Below, in pieces: positions 41,405 to 55,793 of a stretch of 64,000 bases of DNA. The position numbers and the translations under genes are program-made. The notes under the pieces are model-generated. The model searched no databases, was not told the DNA's origin, and saw nothing but the letters and a program-made list of their open reading frames with translations. How positions within the stretch are numbered: the stretch's first letter is position 1; every line of letters starts with the position of its first letter. This DNA is from Acidihalobacter ferrooxydans (GTDB lineage Bacteria; Pseudomonadota; Gammaproteobacteria; DSM-5130; Acidihalobacteraceae), in the NCBI RefSeq assembly GCF_001975725.1, contig NZ_CP019434.1, positions 682,001 to 746,000 on the forward strand, read 5' to 3'.

Positions 41405-42790
41405 ATGGCAAACGATCAATCCAATCGCTACGCCAATTTGGACTTGAATGAAGCGGAACTCATGGCGGGTGGCAAGCACATTCTCGTCGCGTACAAGATG
41501 AAGCCCAAGGCGGGTTACGACTATCTGGCGACCGCCGCTCACTTCGCGGCCGAATCGTCCACCGGCACCAACGTCGAGGTCAGCACCACCGACGACTTCA
41601 CCAAGGGCGTTGACGCGCTGGTCTACCACATCGACGAAGCCACCGAGGATATGCGCATCGCATATCCGATCGAGCTGTTCGACCGCAACGTCACCGACGG
41701 CCGTTTCATGATCGTCTCCTTCCTGACGCTGGCAATCGGCAATAACCAGGGTATGGGCGACGTCGAATACGGCAAGATGATCGACTTCTACGTGCCCGAC
41801 CGCGCGATCCAGATGTTCGACGGCCCGGCCACTGACATCTCCAAGCTGTGGCGCATTCTTGGTCGCCCGGTCAAGGACGGCGGCTACATCGCCGGCACCA
41901 TCATCAAGCCCAAGCTGGGTCTGCGTCCGGAACCCTTTGCGCAGGCGGCCTACCAGTTCTGGCTCGGCGGCGACTTCATCAAAAATGACGAGCCGCAGGG
42001 CAACCAGGTGTTCGCGCCGGTCAAGAAGACCATCCCGCTGGTCTACGACGCCATGAAGCGTGCGCAGGACGAGACCGGCGAAGCCAAGCTGTTTTCCATG
42101 AACATCACCGCCGACGACCATTACGAAATGATGGCCCGTGCCGACTTCGCGCTGGAAGTGTTCGGCCCCGATGCCGACAAGCTGGCCTTCCTGGTCGATG
42201 GTTACGTCGGCGGCCCGGGCATGATCACCACGGCCCGCCGTCAATACCCGGATCAATACCTGCACTATCACCGGGCCGGCCACGGAGCCGTGACCTCGCC
42301 CAGCGCCAACCGGGGCTATTCCGCCTTCGTGCTGGCCAAGATGAGCCGTCTGCAGGGCGCCTCCGGCATCCATGTCGGCACCATGGGCTACGGCAAGATG
42401 GAAGGCGAGGCGGACGACCGCAACATCGCGTACATGATAGAGAGAGACGAAGCGCAGGGCCCGGTCTACTACCAGAAATGGTATGGCATGAAGCCCACCA
42501 CGCCGATCATCTCCGGCGGCATGAACGCGCTGCGCCTGCCCGGTTTCTTCGAGAATCTGGGCCACGGCAACGTGATCAACACCGCAGGCGGCGGCGCCTA
42601 TGGCCACATCGATTCCCCGGCGGCCGGCGCCACCTCGCTGCGCCAGGCCTACGAGTGCTGGAAGGCAGGCGCCGATCCGATCGAGTACGCCAGGGAACAC
42701 CGCGAGTTTGCTCGCGCGTTCGAGTCCTTCCCTGGTGACGCAGACCAGCTCTACCCTGGCTGGCGCGACAAACTGGGCGTGCACAAGTAA
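41405..42790 (+). CDS. cbbM: Ribulose-1,5-bisphosphate carboxylase, form II
   Basis: A 461-residue form II RuBisCO, which works without small subunits. The catalytic '[10 protein letters not shown]' has Lys near 168; '[14 protein letters not shown]' holds the Lys (about 193) that becomes carbamylated and the Asp-Glu pair binding Mg2+; '[13 protein letters not shown]' forms loop 6 with the mobile Lys; '[10 protein letters not shown]' and '[11 protein letters not shown]' complete the phosphate sites. The start at 41405 has AGGAGG ahead of it. A good terminator separates it from cbbQ. Form II enzymes favour high CO2 and low O2. Confidence 0.98.
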
Positions 42791-42806: not shown

Positions 42807-42834
42807 ACGCCCCCGTGAACCGGGGGCGTTTTTT
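42807..42834 (+). terminator. Rho-independent terminator after cbbM
   Basis: ACGCCCCCG (42807-42815), loop TGAAC, and CGGGGGCGT (42821-42829) make a perfect 9-bp GC-rich stem running into six Ts (42829-42834). It lies 17 bases after the cbbM stop, so cbbQ-cbbO probably receive less transcript than cbbM. Confidence 0.88.
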
Positions 42835-42874
42835 GTGGATTTACGAATCCCTGATGTCAATGAGGTTGTGGAGC

Positions 42875-43681
42875 ATGACGAGCGACATTGAGCAATATCG
42901 AGTTCAGGCGGAACCCTACTATCAGGCGCAGGGCCGGGAAATCGCGCTGTACGAGGCGGCCTATCGCAAGCGCCTGCCGGTGATGGTCAAGGGGCCGACC
43001 GGTTGCGGCAAGTCGCGCTTCGTCGAATACATGGCCTGGAAACTCGGCAAGCCGCTGATCACCGTAGCCTGTAACGAGGATATGACCGCCAGCGACCTGG
43101 TCGGGCGCTATCTGCTTGAAGCCGGTGGTACACGCTGGCTCGACGGACCGTTGACCACCGCCGCGCGCATCGGCGCCATCTGCTATCTGGACGAGATCGT
43201 CGAGGCCCGCCAGGATACCACCGTCGTCATCCATCCGCTGACCGATCACCGCCGGACCCTGCCGCTCGACAAGAAGGGCGAGCTGATCCGGGCGCATCCC
43301 GATTTCCAGCTGGTGATTTCCTACAATCCCGGCTACCAGTCGCTGATGAAGGACCTGAAACAGTCCACCAAGCAGCGCTTTACTGCCTTCGATTTCGACT
43401 ACCCCGAGGCCGCGCTCGAAACCGTCATTCTGGCCAATGAGACCGGCCTCGGCGAGGACATGGCCGGCAAGCTGGTCAAGATTGCCCAGACCGCGCGCAA
43501 CCTCAAGGGGCATGGCCTGGACGAAGGCATTTCCACGCGTCTGATGGTCTATGCTGCGCTGTTGATCCAGGACGGCATCGAAGCGACCGAGGCCTGCCGC
43601 ATGGCGTTGGTGCGCCCGATCACCGACGATCCCGATATCCGCGAAACCCTGGATCACGCCATCGACGCGACCTTCGGGTGA
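42875..43681 (+). CDS. cbbQ: RuBisCO activase AAA+ subunit CbbQ
   Basis: A 268-residue MoxR-type AAA+ ATPase. Walker A '[11 protein letters not shown]' is near residue 45, Walker B '[10 protein letters not shown]' near 105, and sensor 1 lies in '[11 protein letters not shown]' near 150. CbbQ hexamers with CbbO remove inhibitory sugar phosphates from RuBisCO. The ATG at 42875 is preferred because GTGGAGC precedes it; the frame extends 20 codons upstream into the terminator. It overlaps cbbO by four bases (GTGA). Confidence 0.94.
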
Positions 43682-45936
43682 GCACGCCGACGATGGACGA
43701 GTCAATGAGCGCCTACTGGGCGCGGCTCGATACCCGTTTCCCGCAGGTGGAAGAGGTGTTCGAGGCGTGCATGGCAGACGCCTTGAACAGACTGTCGCCC
43801 GAGGGCATCGACGACTTTCTCGAAGCCGGCCGTGCGCTTGGCAAGCTGGGCCGTGGCGCGGACCCACTGCTGGCGTTCCTGGAAGCATGGCCGTCCACCG
43901 CGCAAACCGTCGGCGAGCGTCTGCTGCCCGCCGTGATGGCGCTCGTGCGCCGCTTGCAGAAATCGCCCAACGGCAAGGCCATCGCACCGTTCCTGCAGAC
44001 GCTCGCGCCGGTGGCCCAGCGCCTTCAGTCCGACGCGCAACTGCAACACTACCTCGAGATCGTGCTGGAACTCATGGAGCGCACCACCCGCTCCATCCAC
44101 GGTTTTCATACCACCTATCCCAGTCCTGGTCTGCCGGATTTCTTCGCCCAGGCCCCGGCTCTGCTGGCCCGGCTCGACATCGGTGGCTTGCGCAAGTGGG
44201 TTGACTACGGCGTGCGCAACTACGCTACCCATCCCGAACGCCAGAAGGACTATTTCAGCCTGCAATCGGCCGACGCCCGCGCCGTGCTGCAACGGGAACG
44301 CCACGGCACATTGCTGATCGACGTGGAGCGCAAGCTCGACCTCTATCTGCGTGGCCTGTGGCAGGACGCGGATCTGCTGATCCCGTACTCCAGCGCCTTT
44401 GACGAGTTGCGCAAACCCGTTCCCTATTACGACCCGCTCGGCATCCGCCTGCCCGACGTGCAAGACGACAGCCGCGGCGTGACCGGTCTCGACCGCTACC
44501 GCGCGACACTGGCGCACATCGTCGGCCACCGCCGCTGGTCCACGCCGCAAATCGCCGACAACTGGAGTCCGTTTCAGCGCATGGCGGTAGAGTTTATCGA
44601 GGACTGCCGCATCGAGACCCTGCTGATCCGAGAATATCCCGGCCTGCGGCGGCTGTTTCTCGCGCTGCATCCCCGGCCCGTCGAAGACGCCTGCGACCCC
44701 GCGACGACCTCCTGTCTGCGGCATCGGCTCGCAATGCTGTCGCGCGCCTTGCTCGACCCCGACCACGACTATCGCGATGCCGACCTCAACGACTTCGTCG
44801 CCCGCTTTCACGCCCTGCTCGGGCGTGCCGAAACCTGCACCGCCGACAGTGCAGCGCTGGCCATCGCCTATGTCGCCAGGACCCGCCGCGCCAGCGATCA
44901 GTTCGCCAGGGTGCATTTCGACGACACCGTGATCGACTACCGGGATGACAACCGCCACCTCTGGCGCTTTATCGAAGACGGTGACGAGGAAGAGCAATTC
45001 GACGACAACCGTCGGACACAGACCGAAGACCCGCTGCAGGGCCTGCCGCCGCGTCACTATCCGGAGTGGGATTACACCAGCCAGACCTATCGTCCCGACT
45101 GGGCCTGCGTATACGAGGCGCTGCACCCGACCGGTCAGGCCGCCGACATCGACCGGCTGCTGCAAAAGCACGCCATGCTCGCCAAGCGCTTGAAGAAACT
45201 GCTCGACCTGCTCAAACCGCAGGACAAGGTGCGCATCCGCTACCAGGAAGAGGGCAGCGAGCTGGATCTCGACGTCGCCATCCGCTCACTGATCGATTTC
45301 AAGGGCGGCGCCGCGCCCGACCCGCGCATCAACATGAGCCATACCACCGCCGGGCGTGACATCGCCGTGACCCTGCTGCTCGACCTGTCCGCCTCGCTCA
45401 ACGAACAGGTGCCGGGCGGCGAGCAGACCATCCTCGAACTCTCGCAGGAGGCCGTCTCGCTGCTCGCCTGGGCCATCGACCGGCTGGGCGACCCATTGGC
45501 TATCTCGGGCTTCCACTCCAACACGCGCCACGACGTGCGCTACCTGCACATCAAAGGCTTCGGCGAACACTGGGACGACACGGTCAAGGCGCGCCTGGCC
45601 GCGATGCAGGCCGGTTACTCGACCCGCATGGGCGCCGCCCTGCGCCATGCGGCGCATTACCTGGGCGCGCGCCGGAGCGACAAGCGACTGCTGCTGATTC
45701 TCACCGACGGAGAGCCGTCTGACGTGGATGTGCAGGACGCACGGCTACTGATCGAAGACGCCCGACAAGCGGTCAAGGAACTCGACCGCGAAGGGATTTT
45801 TACCTACTGCATCAGCCTCGATCCGCGCGCGGATGAGTATGTGTCGGACATCTTCGGGCGCCGTTACACCGTCATCGACAACATCCGGCGTCTGCCCGAA
45901 AAGCTGCCGGAGCTTTTCATGGCGCTGACCCGATAG
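43678..45936 (+). CDS. cbbO: RuBisCO activase VWA subunit CbbO
   Basis: A 752-residue adaptor of the CbbQO activase. The long N-terminal part is alpha-helical. The C-terminal ~200 residues are a von Willebrand A domain with the MIDAS motif '[12 protein letters not shown]' (D-x-S-x-S) near 560, plus '[14 protein letters not shown]' near 675, which binds the metal used to dock on RuBisCO. The start is GTG at 43678, overlapping cbbQ. Its length fits the family. It converges on the next LysR gene with only 13 bases between. Confidence 0.93.
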
Positions 45937-46930: not shown

Positions 46931-48052
46931 ATGAACTGGCGTCCACTGACATACAAGCAACATCCGGCGGAGGTGATCCGCCACTTCACGCCCAACTGGT
47001 TCACCATGACCATGGGCACCGGCATTCTCCTGCTGATGATTCATGCCTTCCCTTACCCGTTCCCCGGTCAGGACATGACGGCACGGGTGCTGTGGTGGAT
47101 CGATAGCGCGTTTTACGGGTTGTTTACCCTGCTGTTCAGCGCGCGTTTAGTGCTCGAAACCGACTCGGTGCGCAACTTGCTCGAACATCCGGTGCAATCG
47201 ATGTTTCTGGGCGCGATACCGATGGGTCTGGTGCCGATCATCAACGGCGGCTTGTTGTTCGGCATGCCGGTCTGGCTGGCGCAGGATCTGTGGTGGCTCG
47301 ACGCCGCGCTGGCGGCGGGTTGCGGCTGGCTGGTGCCGTATCTGATGTTCACGCGCCAACAGCACAGCCTCGAAGGAATGACGGCGGTCTGGCTGCTGCC
47401 CATCGTGGCATCCGAGGTGACGGCGTCGTCCGGTGGCTATCTCGCGCCGCATCTGCCGTTGGCGGCGGCGCGTACGGTGATTGCCCTGAGCTATGCGCTA
47501 TGGGCATTTTCGGTGCCGCTCGCGCTGGGTATCGTCGCCGTGGTGTTCCTGCGCCTGGTGTTGCACAAACTGCCGGATCGGGCGATGGCGGCGTCGAGCT
47601 GGCTGGTGCTGGGGCCGCTTGGCACGGGCGCGCTGGCGCTGCTGGTGCTCGGCGAGGCGGCCGGGCCGGTGTTCGCCGGCACACCGCTGGCCGCGGCGGC
47701 GAGCTTCGCCCGTCCCTTCGGCGTCATCGCCGGCGCCATGCTGTGGGCTTACGGCGCGTGGTGGTGGGCAATGGCCTGGTTGTTCACGCTGCGTTATATC
47801 CGCCGGGGTCTGCCGTTCAACATGGGCTGGTGGGGTTTCACTTTTCCCCTGGGCGTGTATACGGCGGCCACGCTGGTGTTGGCGCAGCAGAGCGCGATGG
47901 TGGCGCTCAAGGTCTACGGCGCCTTGCTGGTCGTGCAGCTGGTGGGGTTCTGGGGCGTGGTGGCCGCGCGTACCTTGCATGGCATGTGGCATGGCTATTT
48001 GTTCAACGCGCCGTGCCTGGCCACCGAACAGCCTGAGCCTCATAACGCCTGA
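46931..48052 (+). CDS. TDT-family (TehA/SLAC1-like) transporter
   Basis: A 373-residue membrane protein with about ten transmembrane segments. The family features 'HFTPNWFTMTMGTGILLLM' near 18, 'GAIPMGLVPIINGG' near 95, and 'FNMGWWGFTFPLGVYTAATLVLA' near 295 are typical of tellurite-resistance/dicarboxylate (TDT) channels. TDT members encoded beside cbb genes in sulfur-oxidising bacteria have been proposed as dissolved inorganic carbon transporters. Here it lies between a CbbR-like regulator and the complex genes, so bicarbonate/CO2 uptake is a reasonable inference; sulfite, malate or another anion is also possible. Confidence 0.85.
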   Translation: MNWRPLTYKQHPAEVIRHFTPNWFTMTMGTGILLLMIHAFPYPFPGQDMTARVLWWIDSAFYGLFTLLFSARLVLETDSVRNLLEHPVQSMFLGAIPMGLVPIINGGLLFGMPVWLAQDLWWLDAALAAGCGWLVPYLMFTRQQHSLEGMTAVWLLPIVASEVTASSGGYLAPHLPLAAARTVIALSYALWAFSVPLALGIVAVVFLRLVLHKLPDRAMAASSWLVLGPLGTGALALLVLGEAAGPVFAGTPLAAAASFARPFGVIAGAMLWAYGAWWWAMAWLFTLRYIRRGLPFNMGWWGFTFPLGVYTAATLVLAQQSAMVALKVYGALLVVQLVGFWGVVAARTLHGMWHGYLFNAPCLATEQPEPHNA

Positions 48053-48279: not shown

Positions 48280-48555
48280 ATGATTACAGCCGGACAAATG
48301 CGCGCGGCGCGCGCCCTGCTCGGTCTCGACCAGCGTCAGCTTGCCGAGGCTGCCGGGCTATCACTGCCTACCATTCAGCGCATGGAGGGCAGTGAAGGCC
48401 AGGTGCGCGGCAACGTTGAGTCTTTGGTCAAAGTGGTGGATGCGCTGGATCGCGCCGGCGTGGAGCTGATCGGGGAGGGCGCGCTCAGTACTGCGTCTGG
48501 ACGCGGCGTCCGGCTCAAGGCAGAACCCGATCCCGGTAGCGGGGAGACCGTCTGA
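48280..48555 (+). CDS. Small XRE-family transcriptional regulator
   Basis: A 91-residue protein, mostly one Cro/C1-type helix-turn-helix: 'MRAARALLGLDQRQLAEAAGLSLPTIQRMEGSEGQVRGNVESLVKVVDALDRAGVEL'. The last 25 residues look disordered. It ends seven bases before the HyfB homologue, so it is probably the first gene of that operon and may control it. The target is unknown. Confidence 0.82.
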   Translation: MITAGQMRAARALLGLDQRQLAEAAGLSLPTIQRMEGSEGQVRGNVESLVKVVDALDRAGVELIGEGALSTASGRGVRLKAEPDPGSGETV

Positions 48556-48562
48556 CGCGGCT

Positions 48563-50575
48563 ATGAACATCGTGTGGACATTGGCAATGGCAGCGCTTGG
48601 ACTGGCTTTGGCTTCGTCCCTGGCCGGCCTGTTCGCCACCGCGCGCCGGCCTGCGCTGTTGCGCGGTCTGTCGTTGCCGCTGTTCGCGCTGTCGGGGCTG
48701 GCTGCGTTGGCCTGTGGTCTGCTGGCGCTGGCCAACGGCGGCAGTACCACTTTGCAGCTTCCGCTCGGCCTGCCGTGGCTGCCCTGGCAGCTTCGGCTGG
48801 ATGCGCTGTCCGGCTTTTTCCTTGTGCTGCTCGGCGCGCTGACTCTGGCCGTCGGCATCTATGGCGTGGGCTATGTGCGCGATTTCGAGCGCGGGCGCGA
48901 CCAGTTGCCCCCGCTCGGCGCGTTTTCCGGGCTGTTCCTGCTCGGCATGGAACTGGTGCTGATGGCCGACGGCGCCTATCTGTTCATGGTCGCCTGGGAG
49001 CTGATGACGCTGTCGAGCTATTTCCTCGTCGCCTTCCAGCACGACAATGCCGCCAACCGTCGCGCCGCCTTCCTCTATCTGCTGATGGGGCATATCAGCG
49101 GCCTGTGCATTCTGCTCGCCTTCGGCGTGCTGGCGAGTTTCAGCGGCAGTCTCGCCTTCGCCGCCATGCGTGCCGCGCATCCGGATTTTCTGTGGGCCAG
49201 CGTGGCTTTCGCCCTGGCTTTCACCGGCTTCGGCATCAAGGCCGGACTGGTGCCGGTGCATGCCTGGCTGCCCGAGGCGCACCCGGCCGCCCCCTCGCAC
49301 ATTTCCGCGCTGATGTCCGGGGCCATGCTCAAGGTGGCGGTGTACGGCTTTCTGCGCGTGGTGTTCGATCTCATCGGGCCGCTGCACTGGCAGTGGGGCG
49401 TGGTAGTGCTGACGGTCGGGAGCCTGTCGGCCCTGCTCGGCGTGTTGCTCGCGCTGATGCAGACCGATCTGAAGCGCCTGCTCGCCTATTCCTCGGTGGA
49501 GAATCTCGGCATCGTGTTCATCGGCCTCGGCCTGTCGCTGATTTTCCTCGGCACCGATCATCGCCTGCTCGGCGCGCTGGCGCTGGTCGCCGCGCTCTAT
49601 CACGCGCTCAATCACGCCTTGTTCAAGGGGCTGTTGTTCATGGGCGCGGGAGCCATTTTGCACAGCGCGCATGAGCGCGATCTGGACCGCATGGGCGGGC
49701 TGCTGCGGCGCATGCCCTGGACCGGCACATTCTTCCTGATCGGCAGTCTGGCGATTTCCGGCCTGCCTCCGCTCAACGGCTTCGTCTCCGAATGGCTCAC
49801 CTTTCAGGCAGCGTTGCAGACCTGGCAGCTGCACAGCGGCCTGTTGCGCACGCTGATTCCGGCCGCGGCGGCGGTGCTTGCGCTGAGCGCAGCGCTGGCC
49901 GCGGCGGCTTTCGTCAAGGCCTACGGCGTGGCTTTCCTCGGCCGGGCGCGCACGCGCCACGTGCGCCGTGCGCGGCAGGTGCCGGTGAGCATGCGCGTGG
50001 GGCAGGGCCTGCTGGCGCTTGGGTGTCTGGCTGCTGGCGTGTTTCCGAGTACGGTTATCGCCTGGATCGCGCGGGTGCCGCAGTCCCTGCTCGGCACCGG
50101 TCTGCCGCAGGCGGGCGCGCAGGGCTGGCTGTGGCTGACGCCCGTTTCGCCGACGACCGCGAGCTACAGCGCACCCGGCGTGCTCTTCGCGCTGCTGGTG
50201 CTCGCGGGCCTGACTGCGTGGCTGGTGCACCGGGGCGCGGTGCGCCGGGTGCGCCGCAGTGACGCCTGGGACTGTGGCCTGACGCCGCCGACGCCGCGCA
50301 TGCAATACACCGCGACCGGTTTCGCCCAGCCGCTGCGACGCGTGTTTGGCGCTTGGCTGCGGGTGGATGAGGGCGTGGACGCGGGCGAAGGCGCCACGCC
50401 GCGGCATCGCCTGCAAATCACCGACCGCAGCTGGGCACTGTTCTACGCGCCCGTGGTGCGCGTGCTCGACCGTTTGACGCGGCTGGTGACGCGCATGCAG
50501 GCGGGCCACCTGCGCGTGTATCTGGCCTGGACGCTGGGCACGCTGCTCCTACTGCTATGGGTGGTGACGCTGTGA
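48563..50575 (+). CDS. HyfB-like proton-pumping subunit of an Ehr-type complex
   Basis: A 670-residue antiporter-like (NuoL/HyfB family) membrane protein with about 16 hydrophobic segments. Key stretches are 'MVAWELMTLSSYFLVAFQHDN' near 155 (Glu on the proton path), 'GFGIKAGLVPVHAWLPEAHPAAPSHISALMSG' near 220 (Lys), and 'LLAYSSVENLGIVFIGLGLSL' near 310. It begins a run of six genes, each overlapping the next by one to four bases. By family knowledge such subunits translocate H+ or Na+, driven by redox chemistry in the peripheral arm. Confidence 0.88.
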   Translation: MNIVWTLAMAALGLALASSLAGLFATARRPALLRGLSLPLFALSGLAALACGLLALANGGSTTLQLPLGLPWLPWQLRLDALSGFFLVLLGALTLAVGIYGVGYVRDFERGRDQLPPLGAFSGLFLLGMELVLMADGAYLFMVAWELMTLSSYFLVAFQHDNAANRRAAFLYLLMGHISGLCILLAFGVLASFSGSLAFAAMRAAHPDFLWASVAFALAFTGFGIKAGLVPVHAWLPEAHPAAPSHISALMSGAMLKVAVYGFLRVVFDLIGPLHWQWGVVVLTVGSLSALLGVLLALMQTDLKRLLAYSSVENLGIVFIGLGLSLIFLGTDHRLLGALALVAALYHALNHALFKGLLFMGAGAILHSAHERDLDRMGGLLRRMPWTGTFFLIGSLAISGLPPLNGFVSEWLTFQAALQTWQLHSGLLRTLIPAAAAVLALSAALAAAAFVKAYGVAFLGRARTRHVRRARQVPVSMRVGQGLLALGCLAAGVFPSTVIAWIARVPQSLLGTGLPQAGAQGWLWLTPVSPTTASYSAPGVLFALLVLAGLTAWLVHRGAVRRVRRSDAWDCGLTPPTPRMQYTATGFAQPLRRVFGAWLRVDEGVDAGEGATPRHRLQITDRSWALFYAPVVRVLDRLTRLVTRMQAGHLRVYLAWTLGTLLLLLWVVTL

Positions 50576-51522
50576 ACGCCGCCGATACGGTGCTGGCCGT
50601 GGCGCAGGCGCTGCTGTGGCCGCTCGCGGCGCCGCTGCTGGTCGGCTGGGTGCGCAAGGCCAAGGCGATGCTGCAGAACCGGCGCGGGGCTTCGGTGCTG
50701 CAACCGGCACGCAACCTCGGCAAGCTGTTCGCCAAGGAGACGCGCGTGGCGCACACCGCCTCGCCGCTGTTCAGGGTCACGCCCTACATCGTGTTCACCG
50801 CCACCTGGCTGGCGGCCGCCGCGGTGCCGCTGCTTTCGACCCGGCTGCCCACCTCGGCGCTGGCCGACGTCATCGTCGTCGCCGGGCTGCTGGGGTTGGC
50901 GCGTTTCTTTCTGGCCCTGGCCGGCATGGATGTCGGCACCGCCTTCGGCGGCATGGGCGCGAGCCGCGAGATGATGGTGTCCGGGCTGGCCGAGCCGGCG
51001 CTGCTGATGGCGGTGTTCACCCTGGCCATGAGCGCGCACAGCACGAATCTGTCCAGCGTGGTCGATCACCAGCTCACCGGCGGCACCTTGCTGCCCTCCA
51101 TGCTGTTCGCGCTGGGCAGTCTGATCCTGGTGGCAGTGGCCGAAACCGGCCGCATTCCCATCGACAATCCGACGACCCATCTCGAACTGACCATGATCCA
51201 CGAGGCCATGATCCTTGAATACTCGGGCCGTCATCTGGCGCTGCTCGAATGTGCCGCGCAGATCCGCCTGTTGCTCTATGGCGCGCTCATCGCCAACGTG
51301 TTCTTTCCCTGGGGGATCGCGACGTCGGCACAGCCCACCGCACTGGGTATCGCCCTCGGCGCGCTTGCCGGCAAGTTGCTGGTGCTTGGCGCGGCGCTGG
51401 CGGCGGGCGAAACCGTGTTGGTAAAAAAACGTCTTTTTCAGGCCCCGGCTTTTCTTAATCTGGCCTTTCTGTTCGCGCTGATCGGCCTGCTCAGTCATGT
51501 GATTCTGGAGCAGGGAATGTGA
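50572..51522 (+). CDS. HyfC/NuoH-like membrane anchor subunit
   Basis: A 316-residue membrane protein of the NuoH/HycD/HyfC family, which joins the peripheral arm to the ion-pumping arm. The signature 'AETGRIPIDNPTTHLELTMIHEAMILEYSGRHLALLE' near 195 is complete with its charged residues, and 'GRKAKAML' style loops occur at the start ('VRKAKAMLQNRRG'). The start is GTG at 50572 within GTGA. About eight membrane segments are present. Its presence marks this as a full complex, not a lone antiporter. Confidence 0.9.
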   Translation: MNAADTVLAVAQALLWPLAAPLLVGWVRKAKAMLQNRRGASVLQPARNLGKLFAKETRVAHTASPLFRVTPYIVFTATWLAAAAVPLLSTRLPTSALADVIVVAGLLGLARFFLALAGMDVGTAFGGMGASREMMVSGLAEPALLMAVFTLAMSAHSTNLSSVVDHQLTGGTLLPSMLFALGSLILVAVAETGRIPIDNPTTHLELTMIHEAMILEYSGRHLALLECAAQIRLLLYGALIANVFFPWGIATSAQPTALGIALGALAGKLLVLGAALAAGETVLVKKRLFQAPAFLNLAFLFALIGLLSHVILEQGM

Positions 51523-52196
51523 GCGCCTCGCTGTTGCATTCGGTGGTGCTGGTGCTGGCCGCGATGGCCTTGTTCGCTTCGTTCGCCGTGCTCGGTCAGG
51601 CGCGGCTGCTGTCGGCTATCCACGCCTTCGCTTGGCAGGGCGCGCTGGTGGCCGCGGTGACGCTGACGGTGGCCGTCGCCGAGTCGGCGCCGGAGCTGTA
51701 TTTCTCCGCCGTGCTGACGTTTTCGCTCAAGGCACTGTTGATTCCCTGGATGCTGCACCGGCTGGTGCGCCGGCTGGGGCTGTCACGGCATCTCGACCGG
51801 CCGCGCCATCCCATGCTGGCCACGGTGCTCGCCGTGGGCATGGTGATGTTCGCCTACTGGCTGGTGCTGCCGCTGGTACAAAGCAGCCTGGCGTTTACCC
51901 GCAACATCGTCGCCATCAGTCTGGCAGTGGTGCTGATCGGCCTGCTGACGCTGGTGGTGCGGCGGCAGGCGGTGGCCCAGGTGCTCGGCTTCATGGCAAT
52001 GGAAAACGGCCTGTTCCTCGCCGCGGTGAGCGCCACCCACGGTATGCCGCTGGTGGTCGAGCTGGGCGTGGCCTTCGACGTGCTGGTGGCCGCGGTGTTG
52101 TTCGGCGTGTTCTTCTTCCAGTTGCGCGAGAGCATCGACTCGCTGGACGTGGACCGCCTCGACCGGCTCAACGAAGCCCGCGAGGATCAACCGTGA
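51519..52196 (+). CDS. HyfE-like membrane subunit
   Basis: A 225-residue membrane protein of the HyfE family (NuoK-like C-terminal half). It has six to seven hydrophobic segments, 'ESAPELYFSAVLTFSLKALLIPWMLHRLV' near 50, and 'QVLGFMAMENGLFLAAVSATHGMPLVVELGVAFDVLVAAVLFGVFFFQLRE' near 155, with membrane-embedded Glu residues as in NuoK. The start is GTG at 51519, overlapping the previous stop. The C-terminal tail 'SLDVDRLDRLNEARED' is charged and cytoplasmic. Confidence 0.88.
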   Translation: MSASLLHSVVLVLAAMALFASFAVLGQARLLSAIHAFAWQGALVAAVTLTVAVAESAPELYFSAVLTFSLKALLIPWMLHRLVRRLGLSRHLDRPRHPMLATVLAVGMVMFAYWLVLPLVQSSLAFTRNIVAISLAVVLIGLLTLVVRRQAVAQVLGFMAMENGLFLAAVSATHGMPLVVELGVAFDVLVAAVLFGVFFFQLRESIDSLDVDRLDRLNEAREDQP

Positions 52197-53668
52197 GCGC
52201 CGCGCTGCCCCTGGTCACCTACACTCCGCTGGCCGGTGCGCTGCTGCTCGGGTCGTTGCGCCGCGACCGTCTGGCCGGCTGGCTGAACGTGGCACTGGGC
52301 GCGGTCTCCTTCGGCGCTTCGGTGGTACTCGCCTGGGAGGTAGCGCGCTCTGGCGTGGTGACCGGCTTCGGCCTGCGGGTGGACGATTTCAGCGTGTTTC
52401 TGGTGGTGCTCACGGCCTTCGTCGGACTGACGACCTCGATCTTCTCGCGTCCCTACATGCAGCATGTGCTGCACACCCGCCTGACCGGGCCGTACGGGCT
52501 GCGCCTGTATCACGCCATGTATCAGAGTTTTTTGTTCACCATGCTGCTCGCGCTGACCACCAACAACCTCGGCGTGCTGTGGGTGGCGGTGGAGGGCGCC
52601 ACGCTGAGCACCGTCATGCTGGTGTCGCTGTACCGCACGCCGGAGGCGGTGGAAGCCGCGTGGAAGTATTTCATCCTGTGCGGTGTCGGCATCGCGCTGG
52701 CCTTGTTCGGCACCGTGCTGGTCTATTTCGCTGCGCAGCATGTGTTACCCGATCCGGCGCAGGGTCTGAACTGGAGCGTGCTGAATGCCCACCGCGCCCA
52801 GTTGCAACCGGCGGTGATGAGCATCGCCTTCGTGTTTCTGTTGATCGGCTACGGCACCAAGGTCGGGCTGGTGCCCATGCATCAGTGGCTTCCGGATGCG
52901 CATTCCGAAGGCCCGACGCCGATCTCGGCGATACTCTCCGGCTTGCTGCTCAACGTGGCCCTGTACGCCGTGGTGCGCTTCAAAATGCTGGTCGACGGCT
53001 CGCTCGCGCACACCTCGCATCCGTACCTGGCCGGTCAGTTGATGATGGGCTTCGGGCTGGTGTCGTTTCTCGTCGCCGGGTTGTTCCTGCACCGCCAGCG
53101 CGACGTCAAGCGCCTGTTCAGCTATTCCTCCATCGAACACATGGGGCTGATGACCTTCGGCTTCGGGCTCGGCGGCCCGTTGGCGACTTTCGCCGCCTTG
53201 CTGCACATGCTGGTGCATTCGCTGACCAAGTCCGCGATCTTCGTCACCGTCGGCCATGCCACGCATCTGGCGGGCACCCAATCCATCGAACACATCAGGG
53301 GGCTGCTACGCGCCCAGCCCGGCATCGGCTGGCCGTTTCTGCTCGGCGTCGCCGCCATCGCCGGCTTCCCGCCCTTTGGCATCTTCACCAGCGAATTTCT
53401 GCTGCTCAGCGCCACCATGCACGCCGAGCCTGCCTTGACCATCCTGCTACTGCTCGGGCTGGTGATCGCCTTCGCCGGCCTGTTTCGCCACCTCCAGCCG
53501 ATGGTCTACGGCGCTGCGCCGGAGGGGTTGGAGCCGGTCAAGGTCAACATGCTGCCGGTGGTGCTGCATCTCGTGCTGGTGTTGTGGCTGGGTCTGGCGA
53601 TTCCGGCGGTGCTGGTCGCCTGGCTGAATCATGCGACCGTGTTGATTGCGGGGGCGCCGGTGTTATGA
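52193..53668 (+). CDS. HyfF-like proton-pumping subunit (NuoN/NuoM family)
   Basis: A 491-residue antiporter-like membrane protein with about 14 segments. 'LWVAVEGATLSTVMLVSLYR' near 128 holds the conserved Glu, 'GYGTKVGLVPMHQWLPDAHSEGPTPISAILSG' near 218 the Lys, and 'LFSYSSIEHMGLMTFGFGLGG' near 305 the next. It is the second ion-pumping subunit of the set (HyfB being the first); a HyfD equivalent is absent. The start is GTG at 52193. It overlaps the large subunit gene by four bases. Confidence 0.88.
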   Translation: MSAALPLVTYTPLAGALLLGSLRRDRLAGWLNVALGAVSFGASVVLAWEVARSGVVTGFGLRVDDFSVFLVVLTAFVGLTTSIFSRPYMQHVLHTRLTGPYGLRLYHAMYQSFLFTMLLALTTNNLGVLWVAVEGATLSTVMLVSLYRTPEAVEAAWKYFILCGVGIALALFGTVLVYFAAQHVLPDPAQGLNWSVLNAHRAQLQPAVMSIAFVFLLIGYGTKVGLVPMHQWLPDAHSEGPTPISAILSGLLLNVALYAVVRFKMLVDGSLAHTSHPYLAGQLMMGFGLVSFLVAGLFLHRQRDVKRLFSYSSIEHMGLMTFGFGLGGPLATFAALLHMLVHSLTKSAIFVTVGHATHLAGTQSIEHIRGLLRAQPGIGWPFLLGVAAIAGFPPFGIFTSEFLLLSATMHAEPALTILLLLGLVIAFAGLFRHLQPMVYGAAPEGLEPVKVNMLPVVLHLVLVLWLGLAIPAVLVAWLNHATVLIAGAPVL

Positions 53669-55245
53669 GCCGAGCTATATGGTTGCCCAAGTTCGAAGCG
53701 CGTCTTCAGGAAGCCGGTATTGCACTGGGTGCCGACTGTGGGATTTCATCGGTTTGCACGCGCAGCATTGCCGCTTCGGACTGGGGGCCTGCAGCTGCAG
53801 TCGCGATGACGTTCGGTTGCCGCTGGGCGGGCATGTGGGCCGAGGCCGACGAAGCGCGCATGCGCCTGTACTGCGTGCTGGATTACGCCGGCGACTCCCT
53901 GCTGCTGAGCGCCGAAGCGCCGCTCGAAACCACCGAATTCACCTCGCAGACGCCGCATTTCCCGGCCGCCGACCGCATGGAGCGCCACGCCCGCGACCTG
54001 TTCGGCGTGATCTTCGTCGACCATCCCGATCCGCGTCGATGGACGCGACACTGCGCCTGGCCGGAGAACTGGCATCCTCTGCACCCCGCGCAGGCAGGCG
54101 ATCCGCCCACGCCCGGACGTACCCCGGCGGATGTCGATTACCCGTTCGCCGCCGTCCACGGCAACGGCGTGTTCGAGATACCGGTCGGCCCGGTGCATGC
54201 CGGCATCATCGAGCCGGGGCATTTTCGCTTTCATGCCGCGGGCGAGCCGGTCTTGAAGCTGGAGGAGCGGCTCGGCTATGTGCACAAGGGCATCGAGCGC
54301 CTCGCCGTGGGCCGCGATCCGGCGGGGCTCGCGCGCCTGGCCGCGCGGGTTTCCGGCGACAGCGCGGTGGCGCACGCCTGGGCTGCCTGCCAGGCCATGG
54401 AACGTGCCGCCGGCATCGAAGCGCCGCCGCGCGCGCTGGCCTTGCGCGGCCTGCTCGCCGAACGCGAACGGGTGGCCAATCACCTCGGCGACATCGGCGC
54501 TATCTGCAACGATGTGGGCTTTGCCTTCGCCCATGTGCAGACCGCGCGCCTGCGCGAACGCTGGCAACGCCGCAATCGTGAATGTTTCGGCCATCGCCTG
54601 TTGATGGATACGCTCGTCCCCGGCGGCGTGGCGCGTGACCTGCCGGTAGGCGCAGCCGAGAACCTGTGCGCCGATCACGCCGCGCTGCGGCGCGAAGTCG
54701 AGCCGCTGTTCGACATCATCGACGACCACCCGCCGCTGGACGACCGCCTAGTCGGCACCGGCGTACTCAGTCTGGAGAACGCCCGCGCGCTGGGCTGCAC
54801 GGGCTATCTCGGCAAGGCCAGCGGCTGCGGATTCGACCTGCGTCGCGATGCCCCGTATGCGCCTTACGACGCGCTGGAGGTGCCGCTCGTCACCGATAGC
54901 GAGGGCGACACCGCCGCCCGCGTGCGCGTGCGCATGGCGGAAGTGCGCGCCAGCCTCGATCTCATGGATCAATTACTGGACGCTATGCCGTCCGGTGAGA
55001 CCACCGCGCCGTTGCCCACGCCGCTACCTGGCGCCATCGGTTTCGGTCAGGTGGAAGGCTGGCGCGGGGAAACGCTGGCCTGGGTGCGCTTCGATAACGC
55101 CGGGCGCATTGCGCGCTACTTCCCGCGCGATCCGAGCTGGTTCTACTGGCCGGCGTTGGAGCGCCTGATCATGGGCGAAATCGTGCCGGATTTTCCGGTG
55201 TGCAACAAATCGGTCAATGGTTCCTATTCGGGTGTGGATCTCTAA
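53665..55245 (+). CDS. HyfG-like large subunit lacking all NiFe-binding cysteines
   Basis: A 526-residue fusion of a NuoC-type domain (about 1-165, 'ERHARDLFGVIFVDHPDPRRW') and a NuoD/hydrogenase large-subunit domain. In true hydrogenases, two CxxC pairs bind NiFe, in 'RxCGxC' and near the C-terminal 'DPCxxC'. Here the first is 'RVSGDS' (Ser230 and Ser233), and the end is 'NKSVNGSYSGVDL' (Ser520 and Gly523), so all four ligands are gone. The protein stops three residues later, with no maturation peptide. By established classification this is the Ehr (energy-converting hydrogenase related) type, whose substrate is unknown. The start is ATG in an ATGA overlap. Confidence 0.88.
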   Translation: MSRAIWLPKFEARLQEAGIALGADCGISSVCTRSIAASDWGPAAAVAMTFGCRWAGMWAEADEARMRLYCVLDYAGDSLLLSAEAPLETTEFTSQTPHFPAADRMERHARDLFGVIFVDHPDPRRWTRHCAWPENWHPLHPAQAGDPPTPGRTPADVDYPFAAVHGNGVFEIPVGPVHAGIIEPGHFRFHAAGEPVLKLEERLGYVHKGIERLAVGRDPAGLARLAARVSGDSAVAHAWAACQAMERAAGIEAPPRALALRGLLAERERVANHLGDIGAICNDVGFAFAHVQTARLRERWQRRNRECFGHRLLMDTLVPGGVARDLPVGAAENLCADHAALRREVEPLFDIIDDHPPLDDRLVGTGVLSLENARALGCTGYLGKASGCGFDLRRDAPYAPYDALEVPLVTDSEGDTAARVRVRMAEVRASLDLMDQLLDAMPSGETTAPLPTPLPGAIGFGQVEGWRGETLAWVRFDNAGRIARYFPRDPSWFYWPALERLIMGEIVPDFPVCNKSVNGSYSGVDL

Positions 55246-55793
55246 TGCTCCGCATACTCGCCCATATTCTGCGTACCGGCATCGTCACCGAGCCGCCGCC
55301 GGCCACCGACGACGCGACGCTGGAGGCGCTCGGACTGGAGCTGCGCCGCGCCATCGATGCCCGCTTCGGCCGCAGCCTGGCGTTGCGGTTTATCGATGCC
55401 GGCTCCTGCAACGGCTGCGAACTTGAAGTCCATGCCCTCGCCAATCCCTATTACGATCTGGAGCGCTTCGGCGTAGGCTTCGTCGCCTCCCCGCGTCACG
55501 CCGATGCTCTGCTGATCACTGGCCCCGTGTCGCGGCACATGGAAACCGCGCTGCGCCGCACCTGGCGGGCGATGCCCTCGCCCAAGTTCGTCATCGCCGC
55601 CGGCCAATGCGCCTGCGACGGCGGCGAGTTCGGCGTGTCCTACGCCAGCTGCGGCGCGGTCGAGAACGTCCTGCCGGTGGATGTGAAAATTCCCGGCTGC
55701 CCGCCTGCGCCTGATGACATCATCCGCGGCTTGCTGGCGGCGCTGAATCTTACTGCGGAAAACCCACACATCCGCGTATCCCGCATCGGTTAA
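55245..55793 (+). CDS. HyfI/NuoB-like Fe-S small subunit
   Basis: A 182-residue NuoB/HyfI-family protein. The [4Fe-4S] ligands are retained: Cys55 and Cys58 in 'CNGCELE', Cys122 in 'GQCACDGG', and Cys152 in 'PGCPPAPDDI'. This corresponds to the N2 cluster of complex I. Its start shares one base with the large-subunit stop, and it ends the operon. Electrons must reach this cluster from an unidentified donor, as no ferredoxin-like (HyfA/HyfH) gene is present nearby. Confidence 0.9.
   Translation: MLRILAHILRTGIVTEPPPATDDATLEALGLELRRAIDARFGRSLALRFIDAGSCNGCELEVHALANPYYDLERFGVGFVASPRHADALLITGPVSRHMETALRRTWRAMPSPKFVIAAGQCACDGGEFGVSYASCGAVENVLPVDVKIPGCPPAPDDIIRGLLAALNLTAENPHIRVSRIG

Follow-up and report, generated by a model that had tools for sequence, protein, structure and literature searches.

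Ehr complexes consist of group-4-like hydrogenase subunits combined with antiporter subunits and do not contain the ligands of the NiFe center (PMC6349859, PMC10284858; a passage of the latter cites Marreiros 2013 on these complexes). In Acidithiobacillus, the "cluster III" hydrogenase-like complex carries the motifs SGD[TS] and NLSYSGHDL, whose departure from the NiFe motifs was remarked upon in 2018; it was described for that genus only and interpreted as formate hydrogenlyase-like (PMC6002666). The authors of the genome studies on At. ferrooxidans and At. caldus interpret the hyf complexes as hydrogenases (PMC2621215; PMC3826726), and the At. ferrooxidans subunit was assigned to the non-hydrogenases by HydDB (PMC7735108). 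The MBS complex of P. furiosus is also derived from a hydrogenase with loss of NiFe ligands, keeping two of the four NiFe Cys residues together with a three-Cys catalytic cluster (PMC7684303). The DAB/DAC complexes for CO2 uptake, finally, contain NuoL-like proton-path subunits and are linked to inorganic carbon (PMC13144422).

The window analyzed here is a stretch of 64,000 nucleotides from the genome of Acidihalobacter ferrooxydans, a single contig of 3.45 Mb; all window features given below lie on the forward strand. The operon at 48563-55793 almost certainly encodes a six-subunit Ehr complex of the HyfBCEFGI type, with the gene order hyfB, hyfC, hyfE, hyfF, large subunit, small subunit, and overlaps of 1 to 19 nt between successive genes. 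It starts with a HyfB-like antiporter subunit of the NuoL type (48563..50575, 670 aa; NCBIfam hydrogenase 4 subunit B, 821 bits), followed by a HyfC-like membrane anchor of the NuoH type (50557..51522, 321 aa; Pfam NADHdh, E 2.6e-36), a HyfE-like membrane subunit (51519..52196, 225 aa; NCBIfam hydrogenase 4 membrane subunit, E 3.7e-26, which is below the family cut-off), and a HyfF-like antiporter subunit (52193..53668, 491 aa; NCBIfam hydrogenase 4 subunit F, 698 bits). The large subunit and a small subunit of the HyfI/HycG/NuoB type (55245..55793, 182 aa; Pfam Oxidored_q6, E 7.3e-33) complete the operon. Directly upstream of hyfB, at a distance of 7 nt, lies a small gene of the XRE/HTH type (48280..48555, 91 aa; Pfam HTH_3, E 2.2e-6), whose family is present in 29 of the compared loci.

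The group-4-like subunits without NiFe ligands by which Ehr complexes are defined (PMC6349859, PMC10284858) are thus present in the operon. The complex differs from other Ehr complexes in its fixed six-subunit make-up without NuoI/HyfA parts, in its signature motifs RVSGD[ST] and N[GA]SYSGxDL, which match those of the Acidithiobacillus complex, and in its linkage to inorganic-carbon genes. With formate hydrogenlyase-1/hydrogenase-4 of E. coli it shares the fold and the order of the shared hyf genes, whereas HyfA, HyfD, HyfH, the four Cys ligands, and the C-terminal peptide are absent. A formate link has been proposed for Acidithiobacillus (PMC2621215; PMC6002666) as well as for other Ehr complexes (PMC6349859), and the gene order is indeed like that of formate hydrogenlyase. 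A formate dehydrogenase-linked complex, in which formate electrons would enter via HyfI and be passed on to an acceptor other than H2, is nevertheless improbable, given that the HyfA/HyfH wiring is absent from the operon and that no formate dehydrogenase family is found among the commonest nearest neighbors.

The large subunit (53665..55245, 526 aa) is of the HyfG/HycE type; its Pfam matches are Complex1_30kDa, Complex1_49kDa, and NiFeSe_Hases, and it combines the 30-kDa and 49-kDa domains of the complex I families. The initial annotation had claimed the loss of all four NiFe Cys ligands and had called for an alignment with known large subunits. In the alignment with HycE and HyfG of E. coli, Ser230, Ser233, Ser520, and Gly523 fall on the positions of the NiFe ligands Cys241, Cys244, Cys531, and Cys534 of HycE, which bears out the claim. 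The former L1 motif is RVSGDS (residues 228-233, 54346..54363; RVCGIC in HycE) and the former C-terminal motif is NGSYSG (residues 518-523, 55216..55233; DPCYSC in HycE). The stop codon follows right after VDL, three residues past NGSYSG, and a C-terminal maturation peptide, which the annotation had likewise reported missing, was not found in the large subunit, HycE and HyfG being 32 residues longer. Of the features of a group 4 [NiFe]-hydrogenase, the HycE-type fold and the HyfB/C/E/F membrane arm are thus present, while the large subunit lacks both the four Cys residues of the L1 and C-terminal motifs and the maturation peptide.

The replacements extend throughout the family. Among 114 aligned rows, in which a few genomes are present twice, position 230 is Ser in 107, Cys in four, Val in two, and Ala in one; position 233 is Ser in 84, Thr in 28, and Cys and Ala in one each; position 520 is Ser in 107 and Ala in four, and position 523 is Gly in 111, three rows being truncated. 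With few exceptions, the L1 motif reads R-V/I-S-G-D-S/T, and the C-terminal sequence is V-C-N-K-S-V/I-N-G/A-S-Y-S/A-G-x-D-L. One ligand Cys is kept in 5/114 rows, two or more in none, and these scattered single Cys residues indicate that the ligand positions no longer hold a NiFe center, as the annotation had concluded. Two objections that it had raised against itself were checked. Cys ligands elsewhere in the protein are ruled out, since only two Cys residues, too few for a NiFe site, are conserved family-wide: Cys281, which HycE and HyfG have as well, and Cys513. Sequencing errors at both motifs are excluded by about 110 orthologues with the same pattern; two independent errors are not tenable because RVSGDS and NGSYSG recur in relatives at 93% identity (the match in a MAG named Acidihalobacter) and at 86-87% identity. 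The ligand loss is ancient, family-wide, and not due to chance. From sequence, the usual NiFe ligation would be impossible for this subunit, and the complex would represent a membrane machine akin to complex I in which H2 chemistry has been abandoned for good. The loss had been presented as novel, but absence of the NiFe ligands is already on record for Ehr complexes (PMC6349859, PMC10284858), and the corresponding Acidithiobacillus motifs have been published (PMC6002666).

The rest of the fold is kept, as had been supposed. An AlphaFold2 model of the large subunit (pLDDT 83, pTM 0.88) matches HycE best among PDB entries (7z0s_E; Z 42.1 over 515 residues at 26% identity, VIA-align); HycE ranks ahead of NuoCD, in agreement with phmmer. 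Values of pLDDT below 50 occur at residues 175-184, 282-285, 508-511, and 513-526, the former metal-bearing loops being low-confidence parts of the model. Across 37 diverse orthologues of 50-93% identity, about 100 positions do not vary, and the large subunit is therefore under strong constraint; Asp232, Cys513, Lys515, and Asn518 are conserved residues specific to the family. A decayed hydrogenase without function would account for the lost metal site, yet it is scarcely credible in view of this conservation, which includes the family-specific residues, and of the completeness of the operons. Fold, intact partner subunit, and conservation agree with the earlier view that the protein has been kept for another role. 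The suggestion that this role may be quinone-linked fared less well. When the His/Tyr pair of NuoD that binds the quinone headgroup was looked for in the alignment, it was not found; a canonical quinone site is absent because the His is replaced by Ile182 in 114/114 rows and the Tyr by Gly231 in 113/114, and a site of the complex I type is not supported.

The partner small subunit is intact, as had been stated before: Cys55, Cys58, Cys122, and Cys152 are invariant in 85 sequences and show the hydrogenase-type CxxC...C...C spacing. Sulfur chemistry of the kind carried out by the Pyrococcus sulfane sulfur reductase MBS, with catalysis at the proximal cluster, might be considered, since MBS is a polysulfide-reducing, group-4-like complex in which NiFe ligands have been lost (PMC7684303); many hosts of the present family are sulfur bacteria, and some operons have rhodanese or DsrE neighbors. 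This is highly improbable, however. All four NiFe Cys residues are lost here, unlike in MBS, and the three-Cys proximal cluster with shortened loop is absent, the CxxC and the two further Cys residues being invariant; furthermore, methanotrophs and rhizobia carry the operon, too.

HyfA, HyfD, HyfH/NuoI, and NuoEFG are not encoded in the operon, and as a possible ferredoxin-type partner only one ORF with a 4Fe-4S motif was found near 101 loci. With these subunits and the four Cys ligands gone and the HyfI cluster kept, the operon is predicted to encode a single relay cluster, with neither a wire leading in nor a NiFe site. If the complex has an electron donor at all, a soluble carrier that docks on the HyfI cluster would fill this role. 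In the membrane arm, the pump residues Glu146, Lys226, Lys304, Lys355, and Glu410 of HyfB, residues Glu134, Lys158, Lys223, Lys306, and Glu401 of HyfF, and the acidic channel residues of HyfC are conserved, and the charged residues of HyfB, HyfF, HyfC, and HyfE align with those of the E. coli Hyf and Nuo subunits. The complex probably pumps ions, and H+ or Na+ would move through HyfB/HyfF. It is possible that it does so as a general redox-driven H+/Na+ pump, for instance with electrons passing from a reduced carrier to a quinone or some other small acceptor, in the service of many metabolisms, with any carbon-related neighbors being incidental or derived from shared autotrophic islands. The invariant proximal cluster and the intact ion path are in line with such a pump, whereas the lack of an electron-input subunit and the missing NuoD pair speak against it.

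What is new here is a recurrent linkage of the Cys-less complex to inorganic-carbon genes, which is seen in the gene neighborhoods; a proposal linking such a complex to SulP, DAB, and RubisCO was not found in the open-licence papers searched. In the window, the operon is preceded by cbbM for form II RubisCO (41405..42790; PF00016, E 3e-126 at 41837-42730), cbbQ (42815..43681; Pfam CbbQ_C, E 1.7e-32), and cbbO, encoding a VWA protein (43678..45936; Pfam VWA, directly after cbbQ); a SLAC1/TDT-family anion channel (46931..48052; Pfam SLAC1, E 6e-81) lies between cbbO and the hyf operon. In a survey of 101 loci using a codon-usage gene caller, SulP (PF00916) was the commonest nearest-gene family upstream (9/71; DsrE, 2/71) and, tied with rhodanese, reached 3/77 downstream. 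Altogether, 12 SulP genes are found at 11/101 loci, each within 0.5 kb of the operon, where about 0.4 would be expected from 76 matches in about 135 Mb (bases summed by hand) applied to 704 kb of flank. SulP is a broad anion transporter family. The genes occur in four arrangements (divergent upstream, tandem upstream, tandem downstream, and convergent downstream), and the adjacency requires at least eight changes on the large-subunit tree, although 80 loci of the set are close relatives of the query and phylogenetically clustered. In an evenly drawn genome sample, SulP is located beside the operon in 1/44 hyf-positive genomes, and any of SulP, DabA, and cbb within about 6 kb in 4/44, with less than one expected by chance according to a hand estimate. 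In a Thiomargarita MAG (L123 6282-11590, corresponding to the L158 region), SulP is found directly upstream of hyfF-hyfG, in the place expected for hyfB-C-E. At another locus (L139 16263-17882, G284), the gene upstream of the operon resembles, by eye, that for the alpha subunit of a formylmethanofuran dehydrogenase/formyltransferase-hydrolase.

Other inorganic-carbon genes adjoin the operon as well. A beta-carbonic anhydrase gene is its neighbor at L048 and L107, the latter showing the series SulP-CA-NuoL-like-DabA; a DabB-DabA pair lies 2.4 kb from the operon in a member of the window's own family (G358); and the cbbM-Q-O cluster of the window has a counterpart in cbbX-cbbS-cbbL of G311. In At. 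ferrooxidans, hyf (AFE2149-54) adjoins cbbM (AFE2155) (PMC2621215; PMC8759370), the transcripts of which rise, rather than fall, with CO2 (PMC6458275), a point against a carbon-supply role of the complex. In At. caldus, hyfBCEFG is immediately adjacent to a beta-carbonic anhydrase gene, a neighborhood that was noted under the hydrogenase reading (PMC3826726).

The neighborhoods suggest, tentatively but as a real possibility, that the Ehr complex serves CO2/bicarbonate supply in many of its hosts. It would energize bicarbonate uptake by the putative bicarbonate carrier SulP or, as an alternative step, drive CO2 towards bicarbonate, in a manner like that of the cyanobacterial NDH-1MS or of DAB, albeit with different parts. 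NuoL-like proton-path subunits and linkage to inorganic carbon are shared with DAB/DAC, whereas the soluble arm differs and no DabA (PF10070) was found in the window operon, the only match in the genome being at C1:877868-880819; a CupA/CupB family, as in NDH-1MS, is not among the Pfam matches of the operon genes. It is unlikely, though conceivable, that the ion-pumping arm drives a vectorial hydration of CO2, or the handling of bicarbonate, in the emptied hydrogenase pocket itself, which would make the complex a third complex-I-derived inorganic-carbon pump beside NDH-1MS and DAB, in sulfur oxidizers, purple sulfur bacteria, and methanotrophs.

The distribution of the family bears on these readings. 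At or above about 42% identity, matches are found in 45/369 sampled gammaproteobacterial genomes; the family spans many Gammaproteobacteria in addition to beta- and alphaproteobacteria, and in Cupriavidus, Azospirillum, Rhizobium, and Burkholderia it is carried by plasmids or chromids. In the 369 genomes, an association with RubisCO is absent for the whole family (23/45 versus 151/324, p 0.63) and weak for the close branch (21/31, p 0.023), and DabA shows none. A strict tie to autotrophy is ruled out by the RubisCO counts. Inorganic-carbon neighbors were not found beside the same operon in Rhizobium, Azospirillum, and Burkholderia, and neighborhoods vary between species within the window's own family. 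Both points, like the RubisCO and DabA counts and the 1/44 genomes with adjacent SulP, speak against the carbon-supply reading. A general redox-driven pump agrees with the lack of an overall RubisCO link and with hosts that include heterotrophs, methanotrophs, and rhizobia, but it leaves the recurrent SulP adjacency without explanation.

On a large-subunit tree calculated by a quick method and left unrooted, the family forms one clade (84 rows, SH-aLRT 99), with a second Cys-less type next to it and HycE/HyfG outside. This second Hyf-like complex is encoded in the same genome (L005 6098-13726; G000:C1 about 1741100-1748730), has the L1 motif RVSGVG, the order C-E-F-G-I-B, and a small subunit to which two 4Fe-4S motifs are fused, and is adjoined by MutS-like genes. 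Together with two Nuo-type clusters containing NuoD-like proteins (L003 and L006), the genome has at least four complex-I-like loci. A third Cys-less type (L150, L151, L155, and L153 11627-19153) carries RFSGNA, RFSGAA, or RLSGSS as L1 and, in some loci, two HyfB copies; by eye, neighbors in L151 and L155 resemble DUF190 (PII-like), and a CrcB-like gene is present in L151. In L153 (G234), two different Cys-less complexes are arranged back to back. The NuoD-like proteins of L039 and L040 (G048 and G015), with RICVPD and DACPPEVDR, keep a single Cys in each of the motif regions and in this resemble a form midway between hydrogenase and NuoD.

Summarizing, Ehr complexes are widespread and most of them have no assigned function. 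For the present family, a concrete, testable lead comes from its recurrent linkage to genes for SulP, carbonic anhydrase, DAB, and RubisCO. Annotations naming these operons hydrogenases or formate hydrogenlyases would be corrected, as would published models in which H2 production is inferred from them. Should the carbon link prove wrong, the inventory of ligands, comprising one cluster, no NiFe center, and neither quinone pair nor input module, still narrows the possible functions. If it is true, the complex would be an unrecognized component of CO2 supply in chemolithoautotrophs.
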